The notes under the pieces are model-generated. The model had not been told where the DNA came from, did no database searches, and saw only the letters and a list, made by a program, of their open reading frames with translations. This document shows, piece after piece, positions 6,292 through 19,167 of a stretch of DNA of 64,000 nucleotides (positions are counted from its first letter, which is position 1; each line of letters opens with the position of its first letter). Position numbers and translations under genes: made by a program. The DNA lies in the NCBI RefSeq assembly GCF_900142475.1, contig NZ_FRAY01000008.1:1-64000 (forward strand), read 5' to 3'. Origin of the DNA: Fibrobacter sp. UWH4 (GTDB lineage: Bacteria > Fibrobacterota > Fibrobacteria > Fibrobacterales > Fibrobacteraceae).

Positions 6292-9200
6292 TTAAACCTT
6301 ATAGTCATTCGGCGAATCTTCTGCAACCTGTCCGTATTCTTGAGATTCCTCACCCGGAGCAAAGTATAGCAGGTTGTTGGCCGCGGTATTTTCTACACTC
6401 GCTTCGAAATCATCCATATTGTCCGTCCACATCTCGCATTGGCTGATGACAGTTTTTAGTGCGTCTTCTTGGCCTTCGGGCGGATACTTGTATTTCTTGA
6501 GCAGGCGTTTGATGAGCCTGCGCATGTTGGCGCGGGCGCTTTCTTTACGCTGCCAGTCGATCGTCCTATTTTTGCGGAGGAGCTCCGTTAGTTCGCGGGT
6601 CATGGCGACCAACTGATCGTTGCTATAGAAATCTTTTGCGGCTTCGGGCTTGGTGAGCGCATCGTAAAACGCGACTTCTTCTTTTGTCAAGCCTAGCTTT
6701 TCGCCTGAGAATGCGGCTTCCTTAATTTGCTGTGCCAAATTGAGCATTTCTTGAATGACTTGCTCGTTGGTCAGCATTCCGTTCAAGTAACGGTTCATCG
6801 CCCCTTGGAAAAGTTCAGAGAATTTCTGCGCGTTTACCACATTCGTGCGCGAATAAACCTTAACCTGTTCCGCAATCAACTTTTTCAGGATTTCAACCGC
6901 GATGTTCTTCTGCTTCATCTTGGCGATGTCTTCAAGGAATTTCGGGTCAAACAGCGAAAACTTTTCACCGACATCGCTAAACAGGTTCAATACGCCATCT
7001 GATTTAACGCTCTGTTTCAAGAGTTCGTTAATGCGCTCGTTGACTTCCTTTAGGCTGAACTTTTTGTCGCCGCGACCGTAGAGAAAACGCATAATTTGCA
7101 CGCGGACCGCTTCGAAAAAGTTCGCCTCGGCCTGCATGTTCTTCGGCACAATCGAAGAACACAGCGAAAGTGATTGATGCAACATCAATCCTTCCTTGAT
7201 AAACGATTTTTTCTGTTCTTCGCGGCTCGGGTCCAGAATAAAGTTCAGTGCATCGGTAATGCACATGCCAATTTGCAATGCAGAACCCGTAAAGAATTTG
7301 GAGTAATCGAATCCGTGGAACAGACTGCGGCAAATTTCCAGTTTTTCTTGGAACTTGGGGAACGCTTCCTTAGCAATATCCATATCACCGTAGCGTTTTC
7401 TGTCGCGAACGGTATAGTCGTTCATTGCGCGTTTGAGCGCACTTGCAATTCCGATGTAGTCAACAACGAGACCGCCTTCCTTGTCTTGGTAAACGCGATT
7501 CACGCGGGCAATGGCCTGCATCAGGTTGTGGCTTTCCATCGGCTTGAAAACGTACATCGTGGCAAGCGACGGAACATCGAATCCAGTAAGCCACATGTCA
7601 ACGACAATCACAATCTTCAAGGGGCTTTCATTATCCTTGAAACGAACAGCAAGTTCTTGGCGGTGAGTTTTGTTGCCTACAATCGGTCGCCATTCTTCCG
7701 GATCCTTGTTGCTTTCCGTCATGACCACGGCAACCTTTGCATCATCACCGGGAACTGCAACCACCTTTGAGCCGATTGTCACTTGCGATGTTGTCCCCGC
7801 CCATTCAGGGCGAAGTTCCAAAATTCGCTCGTAAATTTTCATTGCGATGTTGCGGGAGTATGCAACAATCATCGCCTTGCCCGTATAAAGGTGTTCGCGA
7901 TGTTCTTCGTAATGTTCAAGAATATCATCCACCAGCGAAGCAATCGTCTTGTCGTTCCCGAGGACACTTTCTAGCTGGCCCAATTCTCGCTTGCTCTTTT
8001 CGATGACTTCCGGGTCCGCATTACCGGCGAGCAAATCGTATTCATCGTCAATTTGCTTGAGGACCTTGTCGTCCAAATTGAGTTTGACAACGCGGCTTTC
8101 GTAATAGACAGGGCGAGTCGCACCATCTTCGACCGCCTGCGTCATATCGTAAATGTCGATATAGTTGCCGAACACTTCGGTGGTGTTGCGGTCGTCGCGG
8201 CTGATGGGCGTCCCCGTGAATCCGATAAAACTAGCGTGCGGAAGGCTATCGCGGATAATTCGTGCCGTACCCTTGACCCTGTGCGCAATCAAATTGCCCT
8301 GGTCATCCTTCGTTGTCTTGATTTTTTCAGTCAAGCCGTATTGACCACGGTGCGCTTCGTCTGCAATCACGATGATGTTGCGGCGGTCAGAAAGCGGCTC
8401 GTTCGATTCTTCAAACTTTTGCATCGTTGTAAAGATGATGCCGTTCGCCTTGCGCCCGTTCAGCAGCGATTTCAGATGCTCGCGCGATTCCGCCTGAACA
8501 GGAACCTGCCGCAGAAAATCCTTGCAGTTGGCGAATTGCGTATAAAGCTGATTGTCAAGGTCATTGCGGTCAGTAATCACCACAATCGTCGGGCTTTCGA
8601 TCGTCGATTGTAGCAAGTGCGCATAAAACACCATACTGAGCGATTTACCCGAGCCTTGCGTATGCCAGAAGACGCCGATTTTACCGTCGCCCTGCACGGC
8701 CTGTTTCGTGCGGACAATCGCCTTGCGGACTGCAAAATACTGATGGTACCCCGCCAGAATCTTATAACTTTTCAGCCCTTCGTTGTTGAAGCAGATGAAG
8801 TTCTTGATGATGTCCAGCAGCCGTTCTTTCTGGAAAATTCCTTCGAAGAAAGTCGTGAAATCGGCAAGCGCAGTCGTTTCCTTGTTACCGTCCTTCGTCT
8901 TCCATTCCATAAAGCGGTCGTCACCGCTCGTAATCGTACCCGCCTTGGAAACAAGCTGGTCCGACATCACGCAAATGCAGTTGTATATGAACAGGCTCGG
9001 GACTTCTTGCATGTAATTACGAATCTGCAAGTAGGCTTCGCTTGCATCAGTCTCTTCGCGGCTTGGAGACTTGAGCTCAAACAGACAAATCGGCAGCCCG
9101 TTCAAAAACAGCAGAACATCGGGTCGCTTGTTGGACTTCTCGATAACCGTCCACTGGTTCGCAAAAATGAAGGAATTGTTCTCGACATTCTTGTAATCGA

Positions 9201-9522
9201 CCAGGTAAATAATATCGGCCTTTGTTTCGCCATTCTTTGAATAAGTGACCTCGACACCGTTCTGGATATAATCCATGAACAAGGCGTTCTGTTTTACAAG
9301 GTCGTTATTTTCAAAATGACGAATCTTGTTCAACGCCTCTGCGATGGCATGCGAATCCGCCTTCGGGTTAATTCGGCAAATCGCTTCTTCAAGCACCGGC
9401 TCGTAAAGCGGGTCTCGAAAATCCCTCTCTACATCGGGCCCATAGCAATAATCCCAGCCCAGGGTATCCCTGAACAGCTCAATAAGGCATTGCTCGTAGG
9501 CGTTCTCGTTGTAGAAAGACAT
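6292..9522 (-). CDS. hsdR: Type I restriction enzyme R subunit
   Basis: A 1076-residue motor/nuclease subunit. The PD-(D/E)xK nuclease lies near the N-terminus (Asp135, Glu149, Lys151 in RPDVLLF..FELKSP). It is followed by a superfamily 2 helicase with Walker A TQGSGKS (residues 288-294), DEAH (388-391), a GFTGTPI segment and motif VI IARVNRVY. In complex with HsdM and HsdS it translocates DNA and cuts at a distance when it meets unmethylated sites. The gene starts with AAAGGA at a good distance from ATG. It sits at the 3' end of the island, separated from hsdM/hsdS by accessory genes on the same strand. Confidence 0.96.
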   Translation of the reverse strand: MSFYNENAYEQCLIELFRDTLGWDYCYGPDVERDFRDPLYEPVLEEAICRINPKADSHAIAEALNKIRHFENNDLVKQNALFMDYIQNGVEVTYSKNGETKADIIYLVDYKNVENNSFIFANQWTVIEKSNKRPDVLLFLNGLPICLFELKSPSREETDASEAYLQIRNYMQEVPSLFIYNCICVMSDQLVSKAGTITSGDDRFMEWKTKDGNKETTALADFTTFFEGIFQKERLLDIIKNFICFNNEGLKSYKILAGYHQYFAVRKAIVRTKQAVQGDGKIGVFWHTQGSGKSLSMVFYAHLLQSTIESPTIVVITDRNDLDNQLYTQFANCKDFLRQVPVQAESREHLKSLLNGRKANGIIFTTMQKFEESNEPLSDRRNIIVIADEAHRGQYGLTEKIKTTKDDQGNLIAHRVKGTARIIRDSLPHASFIGFTGTPISRDDRNTTEVFGNYIDIYDMTQAVEDGATRPVYYESRVVKLNLDDKVLKQIDDEYDLLAGNADPEVIEKSKRELGQLESVLGNDKTIASLVDDILEHYEEHREHLYTGKAMIVAYSRNIAMKIYERILELRPEWAGTTSQVTIGSKVVAVPGDDAKVAVVMTESNKDPEEWRPIVGNKTHRQELAVRFKDNESPLKIVIVVDMWLTGFDVPSLATMYVFKPMESHNLMQAIARVNRVYQDKEGGLVVDYIGIASALKRAMNDYTVRDRKRYGDMDIAKEAFPKFQEKLEICRSLFHGFDYSKFFTGSALQIGMCITDALNFILDPSREEQKKSFIKEGLMLHQSLSLCSSIVPKNMQAEANFFEAVRVQIMRFLYGRGDKKFSLKEVNERINELLKQSVKSDGVLNLFSDVGEKFSLFDPKFLEDIAKMKQKNIAVEILKKLIAEQVKVYSRTNVVNAQKFSELFQGAMNRYLNGMLTNEQVIQEMLNLAQQIKEAAFSGEKLGLTKEEVAFYDALTKPEAAKDFYSNDQLVAMTRELTELLRKNRTIDWQRKESARANMRRLIKRLLKKYKYPPEGQEDALKTVISQCEMWTDNMDDFEASVENTAANNLLYFAPGEESQEYGQVAEDSPNDYKV

Positions 9523-9570
9523 TGACTAAATTCCTTTGTGAGAAATTTAATCAAAAAAGGCGACAATAGC

Positions 9571-10143
9571 TCAATTTTGCGTTTCTGAAAGGCTTTTTTC
9601 GATGGATTCCAGGAGCTTATAGACTCCCGTAGAGGGATTTCTGCTTTCAGTCAGCGATTTTGCCCTCTGGATTGCCGTAGAACGGTTGCTCCAAAGCAGG
9701 TTCTTTTGAGTGGCACTCAATTCGCCCTTTCGGTAGTGACCCCATTCGCTTGCAGAATTTTGCAATGCCTTGACGCATTCTTCAGAACCGAGACTTGCCT
9801 TCTGGTCACGAGAATGCAGAAGAAACCACAATTCAACACAAGGATTGGAACAAATCATTGTTCCGTCGCATTTATCCAATTTGACATTTACTTCAGGAAC
9901 GTCACGGTCGTACATCAAGAACGCTTGGATGCGGTCAGTTGGCGACACTTTCTCTTTCTTTATTTCACGGCAAACAAGTGCGTTCGAAATGGATTGGCCC
10001 TCGCAAATAGGCACAATCCTAATCGGAGATCTATAGCGTTGACGCAGTTCCTGAACGTAGCATTCTTCCGTTGGACCCTCGCAAAAAACGAGGAACGCCT
10101 GCTTCATCTTTTTAGGGGTTCTTTCTTCTCTACCTCTTGGCAT
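9571..10143 (-). CDS. RloB-type TOPRIM-like nuclease
   Basis: A 190-residue protein with the RloB pattern: FCEGPTEECY near residue 20 supplies the conserved Glu, YDRDVPE near 78 the DxD pair, and SNPCVELWFLLH near 99 the family signature. This is a TOPRIM-like arrangement expected to bind metal and cut nucleic acid. RloA/RloB were first noted as genes inside type I restriction loci of Campylobacter, and the related AAA ATPase/TOPRIM pair of PARIS works as an anti-phage abortive system. It starts 3 nt after rloA stops, so the two are translated together. The effector role is inferred; the family call is good. Confidence 0.85.
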   Translation of the reverse strand: MPRGREERTPKKMKQAFLVFCEGPTEECYVQELRQRYRSPIRIVPICEGQSISNALVCREIKKEKVSPTDRIQAFLMYDRDVPEVNVKLDKCDGTMICSNPCVELWFLLHSRDQKASLGSEECVKALQNSASEWGHYRKGELSATQKNLLWSNRSTAIQRAKSLTESRNPSTGVYKLLESIEKSLSETQN

Positions 10144-10146
10144 GGA

Positions 10147-11382
10147 CTACCCCTCCGCAAGCATTCTTTTCAGGCTTTCGACAGTAGACGTGACAATGGG
10201 TATCGCATCGAAGCGGCCCTGCCTGTAAGCCTTCTCTGCATCCATGTTTTCTCGGAAGTCCTTGTAATCGTACAGTGACTGGACCTCGGTAGCGCCATTT
10301 TCGTTCTTGGTCACAAAAACAATCTGGTCTTTCCGGAACCGATTCATATTAATCAGGCTCAAATTGTGCGAAGAGAACAAAAGCTGCGACTGCGACGATG
10401 CGTGAATCAAGTCAAGCAAAAACTCAGAAATACTGGCGTGCAGGCTCGTGTCAAATTCATCCAGCATAACAGACTTCTTGTTTTTCACGACATCAATCAT
10501 GCGCAAGAGAATACTGAACAATCTTTTTGTGCCTCCGGATTCTTCGTCAATATCAAACGGAACATTCGGGGCAATTTTGTGGTAAGTCACAAATCTCACG
10601 AACTCACGATTCATAACGCGACCGGGAGCACCGAACGGATTTCCAGGAACGGGCATGGGCATAGCCACCGTTTCAATCTTTTTTTCAATATCGCAAATGT
10701 CGCTATCGCATTGTTGCAATGCGGCAAGAATCAAAGGCTTGTTCGTATCAAAATACGACTCGATATTCATGTCTTGCAACGGAATCAATCCGAGCATAAA
10801 AGTCGACAAGAAATAACGGTAAAGCTTTTGCGCCAACTCGCGGTTCATTGAGCTTGCACGGCTAAGGAAAAGATTCTTGTCGCTGGTATTCACGGCAATA
10901 TCATTGGGCCTAGCAAGAACGCCTTCTGCAAACTTGTATTCGGAACCGTCCCTTTCAAAAACACGGGCACGGCGATCATTGGGATAATAGAAAAGACTTT
11001 CCGAAATAATCTTGGACTTCAACAACGAAAAAGAATATTCGTATTCCACATCGTCGCAAATGAAATCAATCAAAAAACAACTTGGCTTTTCCGGATAGCC
11101 TTCGAACTTGAACGGGGCGTAATTGAAGACGGAATTCTCGTTGTGCAGGTGCGATTCAAGAACCATGCGACAGCAGAAATTTATCGCCTTCAAAATGTTG
11201 GACTTGCCAGACGCATTTGCGCCGAAAAGGCCTATCGATTTGAGGAGCTTTAAGCCGTTCCATTCAATAACATTGTCAGCCAATTTCTTGGATTTGGCTG
11301 TTTTGGTGTTCCCGGCCCTAAAATCGATACAAATCCGATCTCTTATGGAGAAAAAGTTCTCTAATTCGATTTTAACCAGCAT
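10147..11382 (-). CDS. RloA-type AAA ATPase
   Basis: A 411-residue ABC-like/AAA15 ATPase. Walker A is GANASGKS (residues 54-61), a signature-like ESGGTKRL lies near 281, Walker B is VMLDEFDTSLH, and the H-loop is FSSHN. The N-terminal LENFFSIRD start is typical of this OLD/RloA branch. It probably senses a phage or damage signal and controls the RloB nuclease encoded 3 nt downstream. GAGGG before the ATG gives a ribosome site, and a large palindrome lies just upstream. It is oriented with hsdR and probably forms a unit that can be moved in and out of the restriction locus. Confidence 0.88.
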   Translation of the reverse strand: MLVKIELENFFSIRDRICIDFRAGNTKTAKSKKLADNVIEWNGLKLLKSIGLFGANASGKSNILKAINFCCRMVLESHLHNENSVFNYAPFKFEGYPEKPSCFLIDFICDDVEYEYSFSLLKSKIISESLFYYPNDRRARVFERDGSEYKFAEGVLARPNDIAVNTSDKNLFLSRASSMNRELAQKLYRYFLSTFMLGLIPLQDMNIESYFDTNKPLILAALQQCDSDICDIEKKIETVAMPMPVPGNPFGAPGRVMNREFVRFVTYHKIAPNVPFDIDEESGGTKRLFSILLRMIDVVKNKKSVMLDEFDTSLHASISEFLLDLIHASSQSQLLFSSHNLSLINMNRFRKDQIVFVTKNENGATEVQSLYDYKDFRENMDAEKAYRQGRFDAIPIVTSTVESLKRMLAEG

Positions 11383-11621: not shown

Positions 11622-12716
11622 TTATTTTCCTAACGGATTAAATTTTCCGGCATTAAGAGCCTTGATTTTCTTTATTCCCTCATCAGCAAAACGCTGTATT
11701 GCAGTTCTGTCGGCAAAATGCTTTTTATGTTCATCCAAAGCAAAGAATAAGCTTCTTTCTTCAGCATATGACGAAATAAATCTCTTAATTGTATCCTGAA
11801 TAAATTCAGCATTGAATAGTTTCTGCATGGATACCGCACGATCCCAGAAAGTTGGCAAGAGAAGAAGCATATACTTCAAACCCGCTGTTTTTACAGCAAC
11901 CCCAGCATTCGGTTTGAATTTTCCATTTGCATCTGGGGCGAATGTGAAATCAACTACGTCTTCCCACGCTATTAAATACGTGCAAATAACATGGATAATT
12001 TCATCTTCAGTCAATGGTTCGGAATCGATGGCCAAATCTCTAATTTTTATCTGCTTCAGGAATCCCATTAATTCCTTTGCTTTAACCCCATTCTTGACCT
12101 TTTCTGCATTCATAATAATGTGTCCCTTTAGGGGATATTCATTACTTAATTTGGACACAATGCTATAAAGAAAGATTTCATCATCTCTAAGCATGCCTAA
12201 TTTTTCCTTGAGCCACATCAGCAGATTGCTGCTAACTTTTTCCTGCTTTTCGTTGCAACTGATAAAAATTTGTCTTCGATCGCTTAAAGACGGACGGATA
12301 AACAAAGTGAATCCTATTTCAAATTTTTCATCATCTTGAATGAGTCTTTGTTTCTCAGCGAAAGAATACAATCTATGTTGCCCGTCCATCACATCAATAG
12401 ATTCTGCATACTGTTTAAATTCATCTTCAGAATCAGGAAATTCAATGTAATAGAGTTCCTTAAATGATGAATGTTGACGTATCTGATAGAACTTATCCTT
12501 GGTTGCCAGGGTCAATGTATTAGGAAGAATCCCTTTTTTCTCACTTACATATGAAGCAATTTCCTTTATACGTTTTCCGTTTAAAGGTCGTTGTGCGTCC
12601 TGAACCTTTGCAATTTCAATCTTTGTCGCAACGCGGACTAGATCACGAGGATCAATGCAACCGATATAGCATTCGATATCATGCTGGGTAATCTTTTGTA
12701 GGTAAATTTTGCGCAT
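11622..12716 (-). CDS. DGQHR-domain protein (DndB/ParB-like)
   Basis: A 364-residue protein with the diagnostic MDGQHRLYSF motif (residues 110-119) and, further on, IFISCNEKQEKVS, matching the DGQHR family. Relatives include DndB of DNA phosphorothioation systems and proteins near 7-deazaguanine modification and restriction genes; they resemble ParB/sulfiredoxin folds and often bind DNA or ATP. No dnd sulfur genes are present here, so phosphorothioation is unlikely. An HNH nuclease gene ends 16 nt upstream on the same strand, suggesting a functional pair. AAAGG precedes the start. GC is low compared with the flanking core genes. Confidence 0.75.
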   Translation of the reverse strand: MRKIYLQKITQHDIECYIGCIDPRDLVRVATKIEIAKVQDAQRPLNGKRIKEIASYVSEKKGILPNTLTLATKDKFYQIRQHSSFKELYYIEFPDSEDEFKQYAESIDVMDGQHRLYSFAEKQRLIQDDEKFEIGFTLFIRPSLSDRRQIFISCNEKQEKVSSNLLMWLKEKLGMLRDDEIFLYSIVSKLSNEYPLKGHIIMNAEKVKNGVKAKELMGFLKQIKIRDLAIDSEPLTEDEIIHVICTYLIAWEDVVDFTFAPDANGKFKPNAGVAVKTAGLKYMLLLLPTFWDRAVSMQKLFNAEFIQDTIKRFISSYAEERSLFFALDEHKKHFADRTAIQRFADEGIKKIKALNAGKFNPLGK

Positions 12717-12732: not shown

Positions 12733-13242
12733 TTAGATAAGTTTCATGATTCTTTTAAAAATATAGTCTGTTTTTGCACTTTTACACTCGTTACAGGTTT
12801 CGCAAAGCGCTTGGAAATTGTTTTTAAGTTCGTCCCCAACCAATTTCCAGGGAACTATATGATCGATATGAATTTTTGAAGGGTCGTTTCCGAACAATTC
12901 CCCACAGACCGCACAACAATTTTTCTGTTTTAAGACAAGGTCTTTTCTTATCTCATTAGAAATAGGCTTTCTTCTGGATAATTTATGGAAATTTGCTTCA
13001 AACCATTCTAGCATAGCTATTGAATCCTTTTGAGACAAATCACAATCTGTATGCTTTTTCACAATGACTCGTGTTGTTTCTACTTTATCAAAGGATTCTC
13101 TATAAATTTTACGGATATGAAGCTTAAATTTTTCATCCTTATCCATCTTTGAGCAGATTTTTTGAAAAAGATTCAAAAGGAAGGCTTTGCGATATTCCAT
13201 TCTTACTTCTTCATTATCAAACAAATTTTCCAAAGAATCCAT
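12733..13242 (-). CDS. HNH endonuclease
   Basis: A 169-residue protein whose C-terminal third is a zinc-stabilised HNH nuclease: CxxC (Cys110, Cys113), HIDHIVPW (His125, Asp127, His128), then a second CETC pair (Cys147, Cys150). The N-terminal 100 residues are charged, helical and unrecognised, and probably form a targeting or partner-binding domain. The ATG at 13242 is preferred because AAGGAT lies at the right distance; a TTG two codons upstream would leave no spacing. It is immediately followed by the DGQHR gene and preceded by two small genes on the same strand. Confidence 0.85.
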   Translation of the reverse strand: MDSLENLFDNEEVRMEYRKAFLLNLFQKICSKMDKDEKFKLHIRKIYRESFDKVETTRVIVKKHTDCDLSQKDSIAMLEWFEANFHKLSRRKPISNEIRKDLVLKQKNCCAVCGELFGNDPSKIHIDHIVPWKLVGDELKNNFQALCETCNECKSAKTDYIFKRIMKLI

Positions 13243-13265
13243 ATACAATCCTTTTTTGAAAAAAA

Positions 13266-13951: not shown

Positions 13952-13966
13952 ATAAACAGGAATTTA
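13952..13966 (+). repeat. hsdS recombination repeat, copy 1 (direct)
   Basis: ATAAACAGGAATTTA, one of four exact copies in the hsdS region. It opens the silent hsdS half-gene and encodes part of the central INRNL segment of HsdS, so recombination here keeps the reading frame. Nothing upstream of it resembles HsdS. Confidence 0.85.
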
Positions 13967-14638
13967 GAGGAGCAAGCTCAGGCTCTATTCAAGAATTGGT
14001 TCATCGATTTTGAACCATTTGGTGGAGTGATACCAAGTGATTGGGAAAATGGAAAGTTATCAGATTTAGGAACTATTGTCGCCGGAGGAACACCATCTAA
14101 AGCTCGTAGCACATATTACACTGATAACGGAATTGCATGGATTACACCAAAAGATTTGTCTTTACACCCAAATAAGTTCACATCAAAGGGTGAAATTGAC
14201 ATCTCGCAAGAAGGTTATGATAATAGTAGTGCCAAAATCATGCCGAAAGGAACAGTTCTTTTTAGTTCAAGAGCTCCCATTGGCTATATATCCATTGCAC
14301 AAAACGAATTGTGCACCAATCAGGGATTCAAATCTGTCATTCCCAAAGTAAATGTTGGTACTCCGTATGTTTACTTTTACTTGAAAAATCATACTGAAGA
14401 AATTGAAAACAAAGCGTCAGGTTCTACATTCAAGGAGGCTTCTGGCTCGCTTATGAACGGCTTAGAGGCTATAATCCCATCCAATCAAATACTCTCTAAA
14501 TTCAATTCGCTTTGCAATCCTATTTTTGAACAACAGGAATCTTTAGAATTAGAAAATCAGCGACTTGTCTCATTACGAGATAATCTTCTCCCAAAACTTA
14601 TGTCCGGAGAAATAGATGTTGCTGATGTAAGAATTTAG
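13952..14638 (+). pseudogene. hsdS: Silent hsdS half-gene (TRD cassette)
   Basis: Reading from 13955 the frame gives NRNLEEQAQALFKNWFIDFEPFGG followed by a second HsdS target-recognition domain and the C-terminal SLRDNLLPKLMSGEI. This is the back half of a type I specificity subunit without its own start: the frame upstream of the repeat has no HsdS sequence and no ATG until 14027. It is bounded by inverted 15-bp repeats (13952-13966 and 14644-14658), so it can be flipped or joined to another hsdS front half. It is best read as a storage cassette rather than a decayed gene. Base composition is AT-rich. Confidence 0.85.
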
Positions 14639-14643
14639 GCCGC

Positions 14644-14658
14644 TAAATTCCTGTTTAT
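14644..14658 (-). repeat. hsdS recombination repeat, copy 2 (inverted)
   Basis: TAAATTCCTGTTTAT, the exact reverse complement of copy 1. It closes the silent cassette and ends 40 bp before the recombinase start. The flank GCCGC before it is echoed as GCTGC before a degenerate repeat at 16869. Confidence 0.85.
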
Positions 14659-14698
14659 GGTGCTATCATTGGGGTTTTCTTTAACAAAGGATGGCCTT

Positions 14699-15685
14699 AT
14701 GGTGCAAAATCTTATTTCGCAGGTGGTGTTGGCGATGCAGCCGCACTTGGATAATGTGCAGGCAAAGCTGCTTCAGGATACGTTGGGAGCGGTGTTTGAG
14801 CGGTTTGAGGTGCGGGCAAAGTCCGAGGTTCGGGAGCTTGCGGACGACAATCGCTTGATTGATGCGTTTTTGGCGGCAAAGCGAACGGAGGGGTGTTCGC
14901 CGAAGACGTTGAAGTATTACAATACGACGATTCTTATCGCAAAGGCGAGTATCGGAAAATGCATCAAGGATATTCAGACAGATGACTTGCGGAAATACTT
15001 GACGAGTTATCAGCAGGGTAAGAATTTGAGTAAGGTGACGGTGGACAATGTGCGGCGGATTCTTTCTAGTTTTTTCAGTTGGCTTGAAGACGAGAATTAC
15101 ATTTTGAAGAGTCCTGTGCGACGAATTCACAAAATCAAGACGACGATTTGCATCAAGGAGACTTATTCTGACGAGTCCTTGGAGCAGATGCGCGACGGGA
15201 GTCCACAACTGCGGGATGTCGCGATGATAGACATGTTCTCTTCGACGGGAGTTCGTGTGGGCGAAATGGTCTTGTTGAACAGGGACGACATTGATTTTGA
15301 AAATCGGGAATGCATTGTTCTGGGTAAGGGCGACAAGGAACGGATTGTGTATTTTGACGCACGAACCAAGATTCATTTGCAGGAATATCTGAACAGTCGG
15401 AAGGACGAAAATCCGGCGCTGTTCGTGTCGCTAAAATCGCCGCACCGACGGCTTTCTATCAACGGAATCGAGAGCCGATTGCGGAAATTGGGGCGAAAAC
15501 TCAAGATTCATCGGGTGCATCCGCATAAATTCAGGCGAACCATGGCAACGATGGCGATTGACAAAGGTATGCCTATCGAACAATTACAGCATTTATTGGG
15601 CCACCGACGCATCGATACGACGTTGCAATATGCGATGGTCAAGCAAAACAATGTTAAATTTGCTCATAGAAAATATATCGGGTAA
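14699..15685 (+). CDS. Tyrosine recombinase, likely hsdS invertase
   Basis: A 328-residue integrase/Xer-type recombinase. A SAM-like N-terminal domain spans about residues 50-140 (KRTEGCSPKTLKYY). The catalytic set is complete: Arg186 (STGVRVGE), Lys210, His276 and Arg279 (HKFRR), His302 (LGHRR) and nucleophile Tyr311. The start at 14699 has AAAGGA 7 nt upstream; an earlier ATG at 14657 lies inside the recombination repeat and has no ribosome site. It sits between a silent hsdS cassette and a full hsdS gene that begins 4 nt after its stop. By analogy with invertases of other hsdS loci it most likely exchanges hsdS halves at the 15-bp repeats. Confidence 0.9.
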   Translation: MVQNLISQVVLAMQPHLDNVQAKLLQDTLGAVFERFEVRAKSEVRELADDNRLIDAFLAAKRTEGCSPKTLKYYNTTILIAKASIGKCIKDIQTDDLRKYLTSYQQGKNLSKVTVDNVRRILSSFFSWLEDENYILKSPVRRIHKIKTTICIKETYSDESLEQMRDGSPQLRDVAMIDMFSSTGVRVGEMVLLNRDDIDFENRECIVLGKGDKERIVYFDARTKIHLQEYLNSRKDENPALFVSLKSPHRRLSINGIESRLRKLGRKLKIHRVHPHKFRRTMATMAIDKGMPIEQLQHLLGHRRIDTTLQYAMVKQNNVKFAHRKYIG

Positions 15686-15689
15686 TAAA

Positions 15690-16874
15690 ATGAGCGAATG
15701 GAAAGAATGCACAATAGGAGAACTCTGCTCTAATATTTGTAGTGGAGGAACGCCGAATAGAAGTAATGATTCTTTTTATAATAACGGCAATATTCCTTGG
15801 CTTAATACAAAAGAAGTTTCCTTCAATCGTATTTACCAAACCGAAAATTTCATTACTGAATTGGGTTTGAAAAATTCTGCTGCAAAATGGATTCCGCAGA
15901 ATACAGTCGTTGTTGCCATGTATGGTGCGACTGCAGGAAAATCTGCTATTGTCAAAATTCCCGTTACAACAAATCAAGCATGTTGTAATTTAACCATTGA
16001 TGGCTCAAAAGCTGATTATAGATTTGTTTATTACTCATTGTTTAATCGCTATGAACATTTGGCTTCATTGGCGAATGGCGGAGCCCAGCAAAATTTAAAC
16101 GCAGGCTTAATTCGCGAATTCAAAATTAGTGTTCCTGAATTAGAAACTCAAACGAAAATTGCAGATATTTTATCATCGTTAGATGATAAAATTGAGTTGA
16201 ATAATCAGATAAACAGGAATTTAGAGGAACAAGCCCAAGCAATCTTCAAGAACTGGTTCATAGATTTTGAACCATTTGGCGGTGAAATGCCGAAGGATTG
16301 GATTAATGGGAAATTAGGAGATTTTGTAGAAATAAAACGAGGTGGTTCTCCTAGACCAATTCAAGAATTCCTTTCGGATTCCGGCTATCGTTGGCTTAAA
16401 ATATCAGATGTAACGGCATTAAATTCGCCATTTATTTTGCAAATTGCCGAACATATCAAGGAATCGGGCTTAAACAAAACTGTATTTCTGAAAGCTGGTT
16501 CACTTGTATTGTCCAACAGTGCTACACCTGGAATACCTAAAATTCTTGATTTAGATTCCTGCATTCATGATGGTTGGCTCTATTTTCCAAAATCAAAGCT
16601 TTCGAACGAGTTCCTTTACCTCTTTTTTAGAGATATTCGGAAAGACCTTGTAAATTTGGGTAATGGAAGTATTTTTACCAATCTTAAAACGGAAATTCTG
16701 AAAAATTTTGATACAGCATTACCTTCGAATAAAGTTTTAGATGATTTTCAAAAGATTGTTGAGCCTCTTTTCAAGCAAATGCTTAACATTCAAAGAGAAA
16801 TCCAAAACCTCAGTACACTCCGAGACTTATTGCTTCCGAAGTTCATGACAGGAGAAATAAACTTAAGCTGCTAA
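15690..16874 (+). CDS. hsdS: Type I restriction specificity subunit, full-length, opposite to hsdM
   Basis: A 394-residue HsdS with two target-recognition domains. The first half (residues 1-165, SEWKECTIGELC, GGTPNRS) is followed by the central helix LSSLDDKIELNNQINRNLEEQ (about 167-187), the linker FIDFEPFGG, the second recognition domain and the C-terminal STLRDLLLPKFMTGEI. The 15-bp repeat (16209-16223) lies exactly in the central helix. It is translated right behind the recombinase but points away from hsdM, so it may be a donor copy with low expression. Its last 12 bp overlap the stop of the opposite hsdS. Confidence 0.92.
   Translation: MSEWKECTIGELCSNICSGGTPNRSNDSFYNNGNIPWLNTKEVSFNRIYQTENFITELGLKNSAAKWIPQNTVVVAMYGATAGKSAIVKIPVTTNQACCNLTIDGSKADYRFVYYSLFNRYEHLASLANGGAQQNLNAGLIREFKISVPELETQTKIADILSSLDDKIELNNQINRNLEEQAQAIFKNWFIDFEPFGGEMPKDWINGKLGDFVEIKRGGSPRPIQEFLSDSGYRWLKISDVTALNSPFILQIAEHIKESGLNKTVFLKAGSLVLSNSATPGIPKILDLDSCIHDGWLYFPKSKLSNEFLYLFFRDIRKDLVNLGNGSIFTNLKTEILKNFDTALPSNKVLDDFQKIVEPLFKQMLNIQREIQNLSTLRDLLLPKFMTGEINLSC
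16209..16223 (+). repeat. hsdS recombination repeat, copy 3 (direct)
   Basis: ATAAACAGGAATTTA inside the full-length hsdS, in the central helix coding region. Similarity to the silent cassette continues downstream (FKNWFIDFEPFGG) but not upstream, marking the exchange point. Confidence 0.85.
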
Positions 16875-17516
16875 ATTCCCGCGTTCGCGGGCATTTACGG
16901 CTGCACCTCGGCATAACTCAAACTTCGTTTGGTTCTGCACTCGGTTTGCACGTAAATTCCTGTTTATCGCATTGTTGAGTTCGATTTTGTCGTCAAGTGA
17001 GGATAGAATTTTAACTATTTCTTTTTGCTTTGCAACAGGCGGTACGCTGATAGTCAATTTTTGAAAAGTTGATGTCGGTCGTGCTAAAGAAGGAACGCCC
17101 ACTTGAGAGGCGTTAGACAATAATTTGTGCTGACCTAATCTTGAATGAAAATAGTAAACCAGGTATTCAGGAATTACTTTTTCATTGCATCGCACTCTAA
17201 ACTGACTTTGCGAAATGACGTATCGACTGTATTTGGAATTCTGCGGAATATAAACAATTTGCCCCAATGTGCCACGATGTGTAATCACAATATCGCCACG
17301 ATAGGCGTTCGCTTTTCCTAAAGATGTAGCTTTCTCTTCTGTAACATAGTTGAAGGAGTCTTCGTTTAATCGAAAGCCAACAAGATTACTTCCGTTGAGA
17401 ACAGGCACTCCGGAATCCGTGAAACATTCAACTTTAATATTCGATCCGAATGGACCCATAGAAATTTCTTCTATGAGTTCAGACATCTCGTATTCTTTCC
17501 ATTCCGTTTTGCTCAT
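16863..17516 (-). CDS. hsdS: HsdS front half in the hsdM operon, currently truncated
   Basis: A 217-residue product. Residues 1-180 are a normal first HsdS recognition domain and central helix (LSSLDDKIELNNAINRNL). Exactly at the 15-bp repeat (16967-16953) the HsdS sequence stops and 29 unrelated residues follow (RANRVQNQTKFELCRGAAVN onward). A back half is therefore missing. Inversion between this repeat and the copy at 16209 would attach a complete second half in frame. As it stands the product has one recognition domain; half-HsdS proteins of other systems can dimerise into a working subunit, so activity is possible. It lies 130 bp downstream of hsdM on the same strand. Confidence 0.85.
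   Translation of the reverse strand: MSKTEWKEYEMSELIEEISMGPFGSNIKVECFTDSGVPVLNGSNLVGFRLNEDSFNYVTEEKATSLGKANAYRGDIVITHRGTLGQIVYIPQNSKYSRYVISQSQFRVRCNEKVIPEYLVYYFHSRLGQHKLLSNASQVGVPSLARPTSTFQKLTISVPPVAKQKEIVKILSSLDDKIELNNAINRNLRANRVQNQTKFELCRGAAVNARERGNLAA
16953..16967 (-). repeat. hsdS recombination repeat, copy 4 (inverted)
   Basis: TAAATTCCTGTTTAT at the breakpoint of the minus-strand hsdS. Together with copies 1 and 3 in the opposite orientation it allows inversions that change the hsdS fused to the hsdM operon. A GC hairpin CCCGCG/CGCGGG lies nearby at 16877-16890. Confidence 0.85.
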
Positions 17517-17646: not shown

Positions 17647-19167
17647 TTACATCTTGAATCCTAGACCCTCCAGATTTTTCTTGATTTGTTTTTCGAGGTC
17701 GTGGCTTTTCGCGAACATTTGGGAGAGTTCGCCGGTGAGGCGGGTCATTTTCTGCTCGAAGGGTTCGTCGTCTTGCACGGAGTCTTCAATGCCGACGTAG
17801 CGGCCCGGAGTGAGGATGTAGTCCTGCTTGGCGATGTCTGCGGTTTCGACTACGGCGCAAAAGCCTTTTTCGTCTTGGAGTTTGCCTTTCTGGAATTTTT
17901 CAAAGGTGCTTGCGAGGCGTTCGATGTCCTGTTCGCTGAGGTCGCGATGCTTGCGGTCCACCATGTGGCCCATGTTGCGGGCGTCTATAAAGAGCGTCTT
18001 GCCTTTCTGCTTTTTGCCGCGGCTTATAAACCAGAGCGTGACGGGGATGGTGACGCTGTAGAAGAGCTGGGTGGGCATGGCGACTATGCCTTCGACGAGG
18101 TCCGCTTCAATAATGCGTTTGCGGATTTCGCCTTCGCCGCCGGTTTGCGTGCTGAGTGCGCCGTTCGCAAGGACGAGCCCGATTTTTCCGCCGGGCGCGA
18201 GGTGGTAGATCATGTGTTCGATCCATGCAAAGTTCGCGTTGCCTGCGGGCGGGAGGCCATATTGCCAGCGCGGGTCTTCTTGCAGTTGTTCCTGGCCCCA
18301 GTTTTTAAGGTTGAAGGGCGGGTTCGCCATGATGAAATCGAAGCGTTCGTTGGCGTGCAAGTCGTGGAAGAACGTGTCTTCGTGGTGTTCGCCGAAGTTC
18401 GCGTCGATGCCGCGGATGGCCATGTTCATTTTCGCCATTTTCCAGGTGTCGGCGTTGGCCTCTTGTCCGTAAACGCTTACGTTGTTGCGGTTGCCGCTGT
18501 GGTCCTGGATAAACTTGATACTCTGCACGAACATGCCGCCGGAGCCGCAGCACGGGTCATAGACGCGTTTGCCTTCGCTCGGTTTGAGGATGCTCACGAT
18601 GGTTTTCACGACGCTTGCGGGGGTGTAGAATTCGCCGCCCTTGACGCCTTCGTAGCTTGCGAATTGCGCGATGCAGTATTCGTAGGTGCGACCGAGCAAA
18701 TCCTTGCTCGCTTCGGTGTCGCTCATGTCCATGTTGCTGAACACATCGACCACATTGCCGAGCACGCGCTTGTCGAGGTCGGGGGCCGCGTAGTTCTTGG
18801 GGAGCACACCTTTGAGTGCCTTGTTGTTCTTCTCGACTTCGATCATCGCCTGGTCGAGAATCTTGCCGATTTCAGGAGTGTGGGCGGCTTTTGCGATTTC
18901 GGGCCAGCGGGCGTTTTGCGGAACAAAGAAGATGTTTTCGCTCACGTATTCGTCGAGGTCTTCTTCAAAGCCTTCGCCTTCGGCAACGAGTTCGTTGTAG
19001 CGTTTTTCGAATGCGGCCGAAATGTAGCGCAAGAAGATGAGGCCGGTGAAAATTTTGCGGTAGTCCGCTGCGGGGATGTGCCCCCAGAGTTCGCAAGCGG
19101 CGTTCCAGATTTGCTGTTCAAAGCCGAGAGTTGCCGAGGATTGCGACGATTTCGAAATACGTGCCAT
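17647..19167 (-). CDS. hsdM: Type I modification methyltransferase subunit
   Basis: A 506-residue N6-adenine methyltransferase. The N-terminal bundle (WNAACELWGHI..KIFTGLIFLRYIS) precedes SAM motif I DPCCGSGGMF (residues 204-213) and catalytic motif IV NPPF (282-285), followed by the conserved GVKGGEFYTP-type surroundings. With HsdS it methylates the host recognition sites and, with HsdR, forms the restriction complex. It is the first large gene of the minus-strand operon, and its C-terminus (LEKQIKKNLEGLGFKM) contacts HsdS in the family. GC is higher than in the adjacent hsdS genes, as is common when specificity genes are exchanged. Confidence 0.96.
   Translation of the reverse strand: MARISKSSQSSATLGFEQQIWNAACELWGHIPAADYRKIFTGLIFLRYISAAFEKRYNELVAEGEGFEEDLDEYVSENIFFVPQNARWPEIAKAAHTPEIGKILDQAMIEVEKNNKALKGVLPKNYAAPDLDKRVLGNVVDVFSNMDMSDTEASKDLLGRTYEYCIAQFASYEGVKGGEFYTPASVVKTIVSILKPSEGKRVYDPCCGSGGMFVQSIKFIQDHSGNRNNVSVYGQEANADTWKMAKMNMAIRGIDANFGEHHEDTFFHDLHANERFDFIMANPPFNLKNWGQEQLQEDPRWQYGLPPAGNANFAWIEHMIYHLAPGGKIGLVLANGALSTQTGGEGEIRKRIIEADLVEGIVAMPTQLFYSVTIPVTLWFISRGKKQKGKTLFIDARNMGHMVDRKHRDLSEQDIERLASTFEKFQKGKLQDEKGFCAVVETADIAKQDYILTPGRYVGIEDSVQDDEPFEQKMTRLTGELSQMFAKSHDLEKQIKKNLEGLGFKM

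Follow-up and report, generated by a model that had tools for sequence, protein, structure and literature searches.

A putative hsdS inversion locus with four short recombination sites in Fibrobacter sp. UWH4 resembles the streptococcal SsuCC20p system

The type I restriction-modification locus SsuCC20p of Streptococcus suis and other streptococci comprises hsdM, hsdR, four target-recognition domains (TRDs) and a recombinase, and two of the domains are flanked by identical 14-bp repeats (TAAATCATCATTTA/TAAATGATGATTTA; PMC10790761). Its switching has been proven experimentally and requires the recombinase gene xerD, and transcription and methylation have been shown for the hsdS gene downstream of the recombinase. 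Neither an inverted xerD nor a state with two or zero complete hsdS genes was ever observed, and a coordinated double recombination has been proposed (PMC10790761). Here, we describe a locus of similar design in a stretch of 64,000 nucleotides from Fibrobacter sp. UWH4 (contig NZ_FRAY01000008.1, positions 1 to 64,000; hereafter the window). We consider it very likely that this locus is an hsdS inversion system with a dedicated tyrosine recombinase.

The word ATAAACAGGAATTTA occurs in the window as four exact copies in alternating orientation (+, -, +, - at 13952, 14644, 16209 and 16953; sites a to d in Table 1). No further copy was detected in the window even when two mismatches were allowed, and a scan of the whole genome added a single match with one mismatch and no other exact copy. 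Chance repeats are ruled out by an expectation of 0.14 and by the absence of four copies in all shuffles (0/100). The longest exact inverted repeat in the locus has 16 bp, and there is only one set of repeats of 15-16 bp. The sites at 13952 and 16209 are junction sites at the starts of two hsdS back halves, termed cassettes C1 and C2; here the word codes for the central-helix residues I-N-R-N-L, and the sequences downstream of these two sites share 80% identity over 116 bp. The site at 14644 is a tail site just beyond the stop codon of C1, whereas the site at 16953 is the junction end of a front half, termed A, and abuts the C2 tail. Each cassette has one site at its start and one inverted site just beyond its stop codon, and each back half is bounded by an inverted pair of identical sites (13952/14644 and 16209/16953), with the C2 tail site displaced by a 73-bp insertion. 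On the plus strand, the shuffling region reads C1, recombinase and full-length hsdS B-C2, in which the second front half, B, is joined to C2. On the minus strand, the order is hsdM, front half A, the shuffling region, six small or medium genes and hsdR, and the type I set is complete with hsdR, hsdM and hsdS (Pfam, PADLOC). The assembled state contains one full-length HsdS (B-C2), a half subunit (A) and a silent cassette (C1).

An earlier sequence-only reading had proposed a phase-variable hsdS locus with these four exact repeats, two front and two back halves and a complete tyrosine recombinase between the halves. The repeats and coordinates are correct, all hsdS pieces match Methylase_S, and the recombinase has a Phage_integrase domain, its catalytic residues and an intact frame. 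We refine two further claims. Each of the four front-back joins is in frame and has only one stop, at its end (A-C1 411 amino acids, A-C2 404, B-C1 401, B-C2 394), as expected if recombination preserves the frame, but the copy at 14644, which had been placed in or next to the central helix, is a tail site past the stop. Furthermore, the four recognition domains are distinct (24-40% identity), and instead of at least three specificities the locus would offer four full-length ones. Overall, the phase-variable reading is supported by the pairing of recombinase and sites, by breakpoints in relatives, by the chimeras and by the relationship to SsuCC20p.

In the proposed mechanism, the recombinase acts at the four copies of the short site, and inversion between opposite sites would place either cassette behind A, in the hsdM operon, or behind B, which directly follows the recombinase gene. 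Where a front half meets a cassette tail, a one-domain half subunit ending in -INRNLAA would result, or one 27 residues longer with the insertion. Enumerating the inversions between opposite sites gives 16 arrangements, which include all four full-length HsdS as well as states with two or zero full-length genes. The same-direction pairs 13952/16209 and 14644/16953 would permit deletion, recombinase included. Switching probably occurs in this strain, different states would methylate or restrict different motifs, and half subunit A may be functional. B-C2 may be expressed from the recombinase operon; its S. suis counterpart hsdS-E has been shown to be transcribed and to methylate.

When comparing the locus to SsuCC20p, we find hsdM, hsdR, four domains, an XerD-type recombinase, four possible full-length alleles and one full-length hsdS at a time in both. 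In both, the back-half domains are each flanked by 14-bp inverted repeats, TAAATGATGATTTA there and TAAACAGGAATTTA here. The recombinase proteins were compared by way of a Streptococcus locus, L056: the window recombinase, which sits between two hsdS units, belongs to the same family as that of L056. The window differs in belonging to another phylum, in the centre bases of the site, in a 73-bp insertion in one tail site and in defence-like genes between shufflon and hsdR. It also differs in the recombinase, which points against hsdM, whereas in S. suis assemblies it always points with hsdM. We treat this direction as a variable state and not as part of the definition, because it is reversed in 6/66 loci of the family (see below). 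As the match holds apart from centre bases, recombinase direction and insertion, we regard Fibrobacter as a new host for the known SsuCC20p system and not as a new kind of system, apparently unreported in this genus. Our literature search found no paper on hsdS inversion in Fibrobacter, with the principal epigenetic-inverton survey (Huang et al. 2020, PMC7672463) outside its coverage, and a search with the site sequence returned nothing relevant. The sequence-only reading had pointed to shufflons of Bacteroides and Streptococcus in general, but it did not name SsuCC20p.

Other described systems are less similar. In the pneumococcal cod/SpnIII locus with PsrA/CreX (PMC4948785, PMC7096588), a tyrosine recombinase of the hsd locus also inverts hsdS at a 15-bp repeat (IR1) and exchanges TRDs in frame. 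However, that locus has three repeat sets (15, 85 and ~300 bp) and three hsdS genes, where the window has one set of 15-16 bp, and its two 15-bp copies bound one segment with two back halves, with no tail site per cassette; this comparison concerns the repeat architecture. The inverting hsd locus of Listeria monocytogenes CC8 (PMC4783014) likewise has two hsdS genes flanking an integrase and four observed configurations, but its two different repeat pairs (16 and 29 bp), which have unrelated sequences, are located at the 5' end and in the middle of hsdS. A REBASE survey of inverting hsdS loci set a minimum length of 20 bp for perfect repeats (PMC7394358). Between the hsdS genes of the window no perfect inverted repeat reaches this length (longest 16 bp), and the survey would thus have missed the locus. 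The comparison extends an experimentally proven streptococcal epigenetic switch to another phylum and defines a recognisable family of 14-bp sites below the published cut-off. For Fibrobacter genetics, variation of the restriction specificity within one culture would also be relevant to DNA transfer.

The recombinase frame is open from 14657 and homologues align from the Met at 14699 (residue 14/15 in alignments with relatives). The catalytic residues R..K..HxxR..H..Y are all present in alignments with XerA/XerD. A scan of 84,980 genomes yielded 476 confirmed relatives (E <= 1e-3), and the best 80 of the 476, which were kept, are 63-70% identical and stem mostly from Bacillota, with a few bins assigned to other phyla. 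The enzyme thereby shares 60-70% identity with recombinases of hsdS loci from many Bacillota. In a tree, the window recombinase groups with that of another Fibrobacter genome (G101, 86% identity) inside a Bacillota-dominated set, and HsdM (73-76%) and HsdR (~70%) are likewise similar to those of Bacillota four-site loci. Together, tree placement and similar hsdM and hsdR fit a spread of the whole module by horizontal transfer.

Almost every recombinase relative is accompanied by the same short site. Comparing regions within 2.6 kb of the recombinases to the remainder of the same contigs, the degenerate site pattern is 45x denser near the recombinases (0.616 vs 0.0137 per kb). We collected 268 sites with a pattern that allows one mismatch and leaves positions 7-8 free; the ends TAAA and AATTTA hardly vary, and almost all variation falls at positions 5-8. 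The window site TAAACAGGAATTTA fits the type TAAA-YRNN-[AG]ATTTA, with TAAATGATGATTTA as its S. suis counterpart. Using a pattern free at positions 5-8, we found 49 loci with exactly four perfect sites. In 49/49 loci the sites alternate in direction and are identical at positions 5-8 within the locus, while ten different centres occur between the loci; shuffles gave 0.5 such loci on average and at most 3. Strand exchange by tyrosine recombinases requires an overlap region that is identical within a locus and free to vary between loci. The constancy of the centre within loci and its variation between them thus probably place the crossover at positions 5-8; the site ends TAAA ... AATTTA would be the arms and the variable centre the overlap. 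Four-site hsd loci occur in Bacillota, Pseudomonadota and Bacteroidota contigs lacking annotation, for instance in Ruminococcus (L040), Massiliimalia (L048), Streptococcus (L056) and metagenome-assembled genomes of Oxalobacter (L064) and Prevotellaceae (L115). They share recombinase family, site family and +-+- arrangement with the window, but have other recognition domains, mostly other site centres and a recombinase usually in hsdM direction. In two loci, L052 and L097, the recombinase-hsdS unit is duplicated in tandem with more cassettes, and L052 has a fifth site.

Fibrobacter also contains a second hsd type, found in L031 (genome G018) and L138 (G063), with two hsdM-like genes, hsdS, a 60%-identical recombinase, hsdS and hsdR. 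The TAAA...AATTTA site is absent from both loci. The G018 recombinase was the nearest same-genus match in a first search (60%), and it was set aside as belonging to a different hsd locus without a TAAACAGGAATTTA-type site. The repeated hsdS peptide in G018 is KSRFIEMFG and its recombination site, if any, thus differs.

Judged from the assembled sequences, the four sites are breakpoints in related genomes. The clearest case is L045 and L048, which stem from different bins or species: their flanks are collinear at 93.7% and 99.4% and the recombinase segment at 99.9%, and an 878-bp cassette segment (9055-9932) is inverted at 99.8% identity with both ends at sites. The second cassette position is flipped too and carries a different cassette. 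Cassettes are also relocated between positions in the pairs L043/L056 and L088/L115. Within Fibrobacter, G101 and G019 each have a full-length hsdS whose front half matches A at 97% identity, and G101 contains a full four-site locus with the same exact site, in which A is joined to a different back half. At the junction of A, whose last 23 bp are identical, a cassette start follows in G101, G019 and G004, whereas a cassette tail follows in G085 and the window. The G085 contig (L137) stops at 9049, ~50 bp beyond the next site, and this assembly break might reflect mixed arrangements in the sample. The refuting condition that the sequence-only reading had set, repeats that are breakpoints in no related genome, thus failed to refute it, as repeats are breakpoints in L045/L048 and between Fibrobacter genomes, in which front half A is joined to other back halves.

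We next consider explanations in which the locus does not invert or does so by other means. Two hsdS genes and a fragment might merely be a static duplication that shares a conserved I-N-R-N-L word, with an unrelated integrase between them. In favour of this, the helix encoded by the junction copies is conserved, and similarity between HsdS central regions is common, as in the 80% over 116 bp seen here. Yet the copy at 14644 and the C2 tail remnant both lie beyond a stop codon, the word is exact although its flanks diverge, and recombinase and site co-occur in dozens of loci in which the centre bases co-vary. With breakpoints observed in L045/L048 and in Fibrobacter, we regard a static duplication as hardly credible; a common central-helix word without recombination is ruled out by the identity at positions 5-8 within loci together with the breakpoints. 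Alternatively, RecA-type homologous recombination between hsdS repeats, and not the local recombinase, might shuffle the locus, a route claimed for pneumococcal spnIII with its long repeats. One report (PMC6620402) describes spnIII recombination as independent of known recombinases, and in some relatives the inverted identities around the sites are longer (up to 63 bp). Against this, the shared perfect stretches are 15-16 bp here, too short for efficiency, the tail sites lie outside genes, and switching at the 14-bp sites of SsuCC20p requires xerD (PMC10790761). This route appears improbable, if somewhat less so than a static duplication.

A more serious alternative is a locked or decaying shufflon that inverted in the past and was stopped or restricted by the 73-bp insertion or another defect, leaving B-C2 as a fixed HsdS. 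The insertion, which the sequence-only reading had missed, separates the site at 16953 from the C2 tail. It parts one TAAATTCC (16872-16879) from a second (16953-16960), which belongs to the intact site d, an arrangement that resembles an insertion accompanied by target duplication of 8 bp. From these flanking repeats, the C2 tail before insertion would have ended in GCTGC-TAAATTCC-TGTTTAT, much like the C1 tail. Besides this direct repeat inside a tail site, a locked state is suggested by G019 (L135), G004 (L136) and G066 (L140), where the fetched region contains a full-length hsdS that retains a single site but no recombinase; these loci are likely ancestral or deleted shufflon forms, and locked or lost forms thus exist. 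On the other hand, none of the four 15-bp sites deviates from the exact word, the recombinase retains an intact frame and its catalytic residues, all four chimeras are open, and the insertion adjoins the 15-bp word and is not inside it, leaving site d complete. We thus consider a locked locus unlikely. Three points nevertheless weigh against an active inversion locus: the inner flank of site d is altered by the insertion, a promoter scan for expression of front half B from the recombinase operon was near background, and the evidence on this genome is one assembled state.

The insertion preserves the frame and lengthens half subunit A by 27 codons. It is present as a single copy in this genome, and the idea that it is a repeat of this genome is thus not supported; no near copy was found in the relatives searched. 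One IMG/VR contig (L141, ~2560-2700) carries a comparable element (GCACCTCGGCATAAC...TTCTGCACTCGGTTTGCACCG) whose inner stem differs. This palindrome-bearing element possibly belongs to a mobile repeat family.

Returning to the inversion locus, we compared the states of 66 loci with a complete alternating set, writing the directions of first cassette, recombinase and second cassette relative to hsdM (two contigs, L060 and L102, lack hsdM and their direction was taken as given). The states ++- (32) and -++ (24) dominate, followed by --- (2, one being the window), +-+ (2, Fibrobacter G101 and G079), +++ (2), -+- (2), --+ (1) and +-- (1). Exactly one full-length hsdS is present in 62/66 loci and the recombinase points with hsdM in 60/66, both above free shuffling, although the 66 loci are related and include a few near-copies so that formal probabilities overstate. 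The six loci with a reversed recombinase include the window and the other two Fibrobacter loci, G101 and G079. A strict parity of paired inversions is rejected, as 60/66 loci fit and 6 do not, much of the fit is explained by selection for one full-length hsdS, and the loci are not independent. The wider locus set supports the coordinated double recombination proposed for S. suis as a tendency with exceptions. Alternatively, selection against zero or two active subunits may explain part of the one-hsdS bias, but it leaves the rarity of reversed recombinases unexplained. We tentatively suggest, as an idea that may well prove wrong, that four-site hsdS shufflons are one horizontally spread machine in which coupled pairs of inversions (both cassettes flip, or the cassettes swap places) keep one full-length hsdS and the recombinase direction. 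If so, the Fibrobacter loci (+-+ and ---), whose recombinase is reversed, would offer the cleanest test in nature: different states are predicted there by single and by paired inversions, although every state has exactly one full-length hsdS. The comparison of loci recasts the question left by S. suis, whether double recombination is coordinated, as a prediction that can be counted across dozens of loci, and it gives clues on how one active version is maintained.

Table 1. Positions of the type I genes, hsdS parts and recombination sites in the window
Feature	Position	Strand	Evidence
Recombination site a (ATAAACAGGAATTTA), start (junction side) of silent cassette C1	13952..13966	+	exact repeat scan
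Silent hsdS back-half cassette C1, second TRD, without upstream front half or start	13952..14638	+	Methylase_S 6.5e-21
Recombination site b, C1 tail site, 5 bases beyond TAG stop	14644..14658	-	exact repeat scan
Tyrosine recombinase (XerD-like)	14699..15685	+	Phage_integrase 3.5e-30; XerA/XerD alignments
hsdS front half B (TRD1-B and central helix)	15690..16223	+	Pfam Methylase_S; 4 bp past recombinase stop
Full-length hsdS B-C2 (front half B joined to cassette C2)	15690-16874	+	Pfam Methylase_S
Recombination site c, front B/cassette C2 junction	16209..16223	+	exact repeat scan
hsdS back-half cassette C2 (second TRD)	16209..16874	+	Pfam Methylase_S
Left copy of 8-bp direct repeat TAAATTCC, putative remnant of original C2 tail site	16872..16879	-	comparison to intact C1 tail at 14632-14651
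Apparent 73-bp insertion in C2 tail site, GC-rich, palindromic parts, repeat-like	16880..16952	.	TAAATTCC 8-bp direct repeats either side
Recombination site d, junction end of front half A, now reading into insertion	16953..16967	-	exact repeat scan
hsdS front half A, in hsdM operon; one-TRD half subunit, 217 amino acids including insertion-encoded tail	16863..17516	-	Methylase_S 6.4e-17
hsdM, type I methyltransferase	17647..19167	-	N6_Mtase 2.9e-110, HsdM_N
hsdR, type I restriction subunit	6292..9522	-	PADLOC REase_I 1015 bits

Lastly, we looked at the genes between hsdR and the shufflon. An AbiLi/AbiLii-like pair, consisting of an AAA ATPase and an RloB-like protein (9571-11382, minus strand), is adjoined by a DndB/DpdB-like protein (11622-12716), and an HNH endonuclease lies at 12733-13248; together they form a small defence cluster inside the restriction-modification operon. 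The genome itself encodes 90 Fib_succ_major domains, which mark the host as Fibrobacter.

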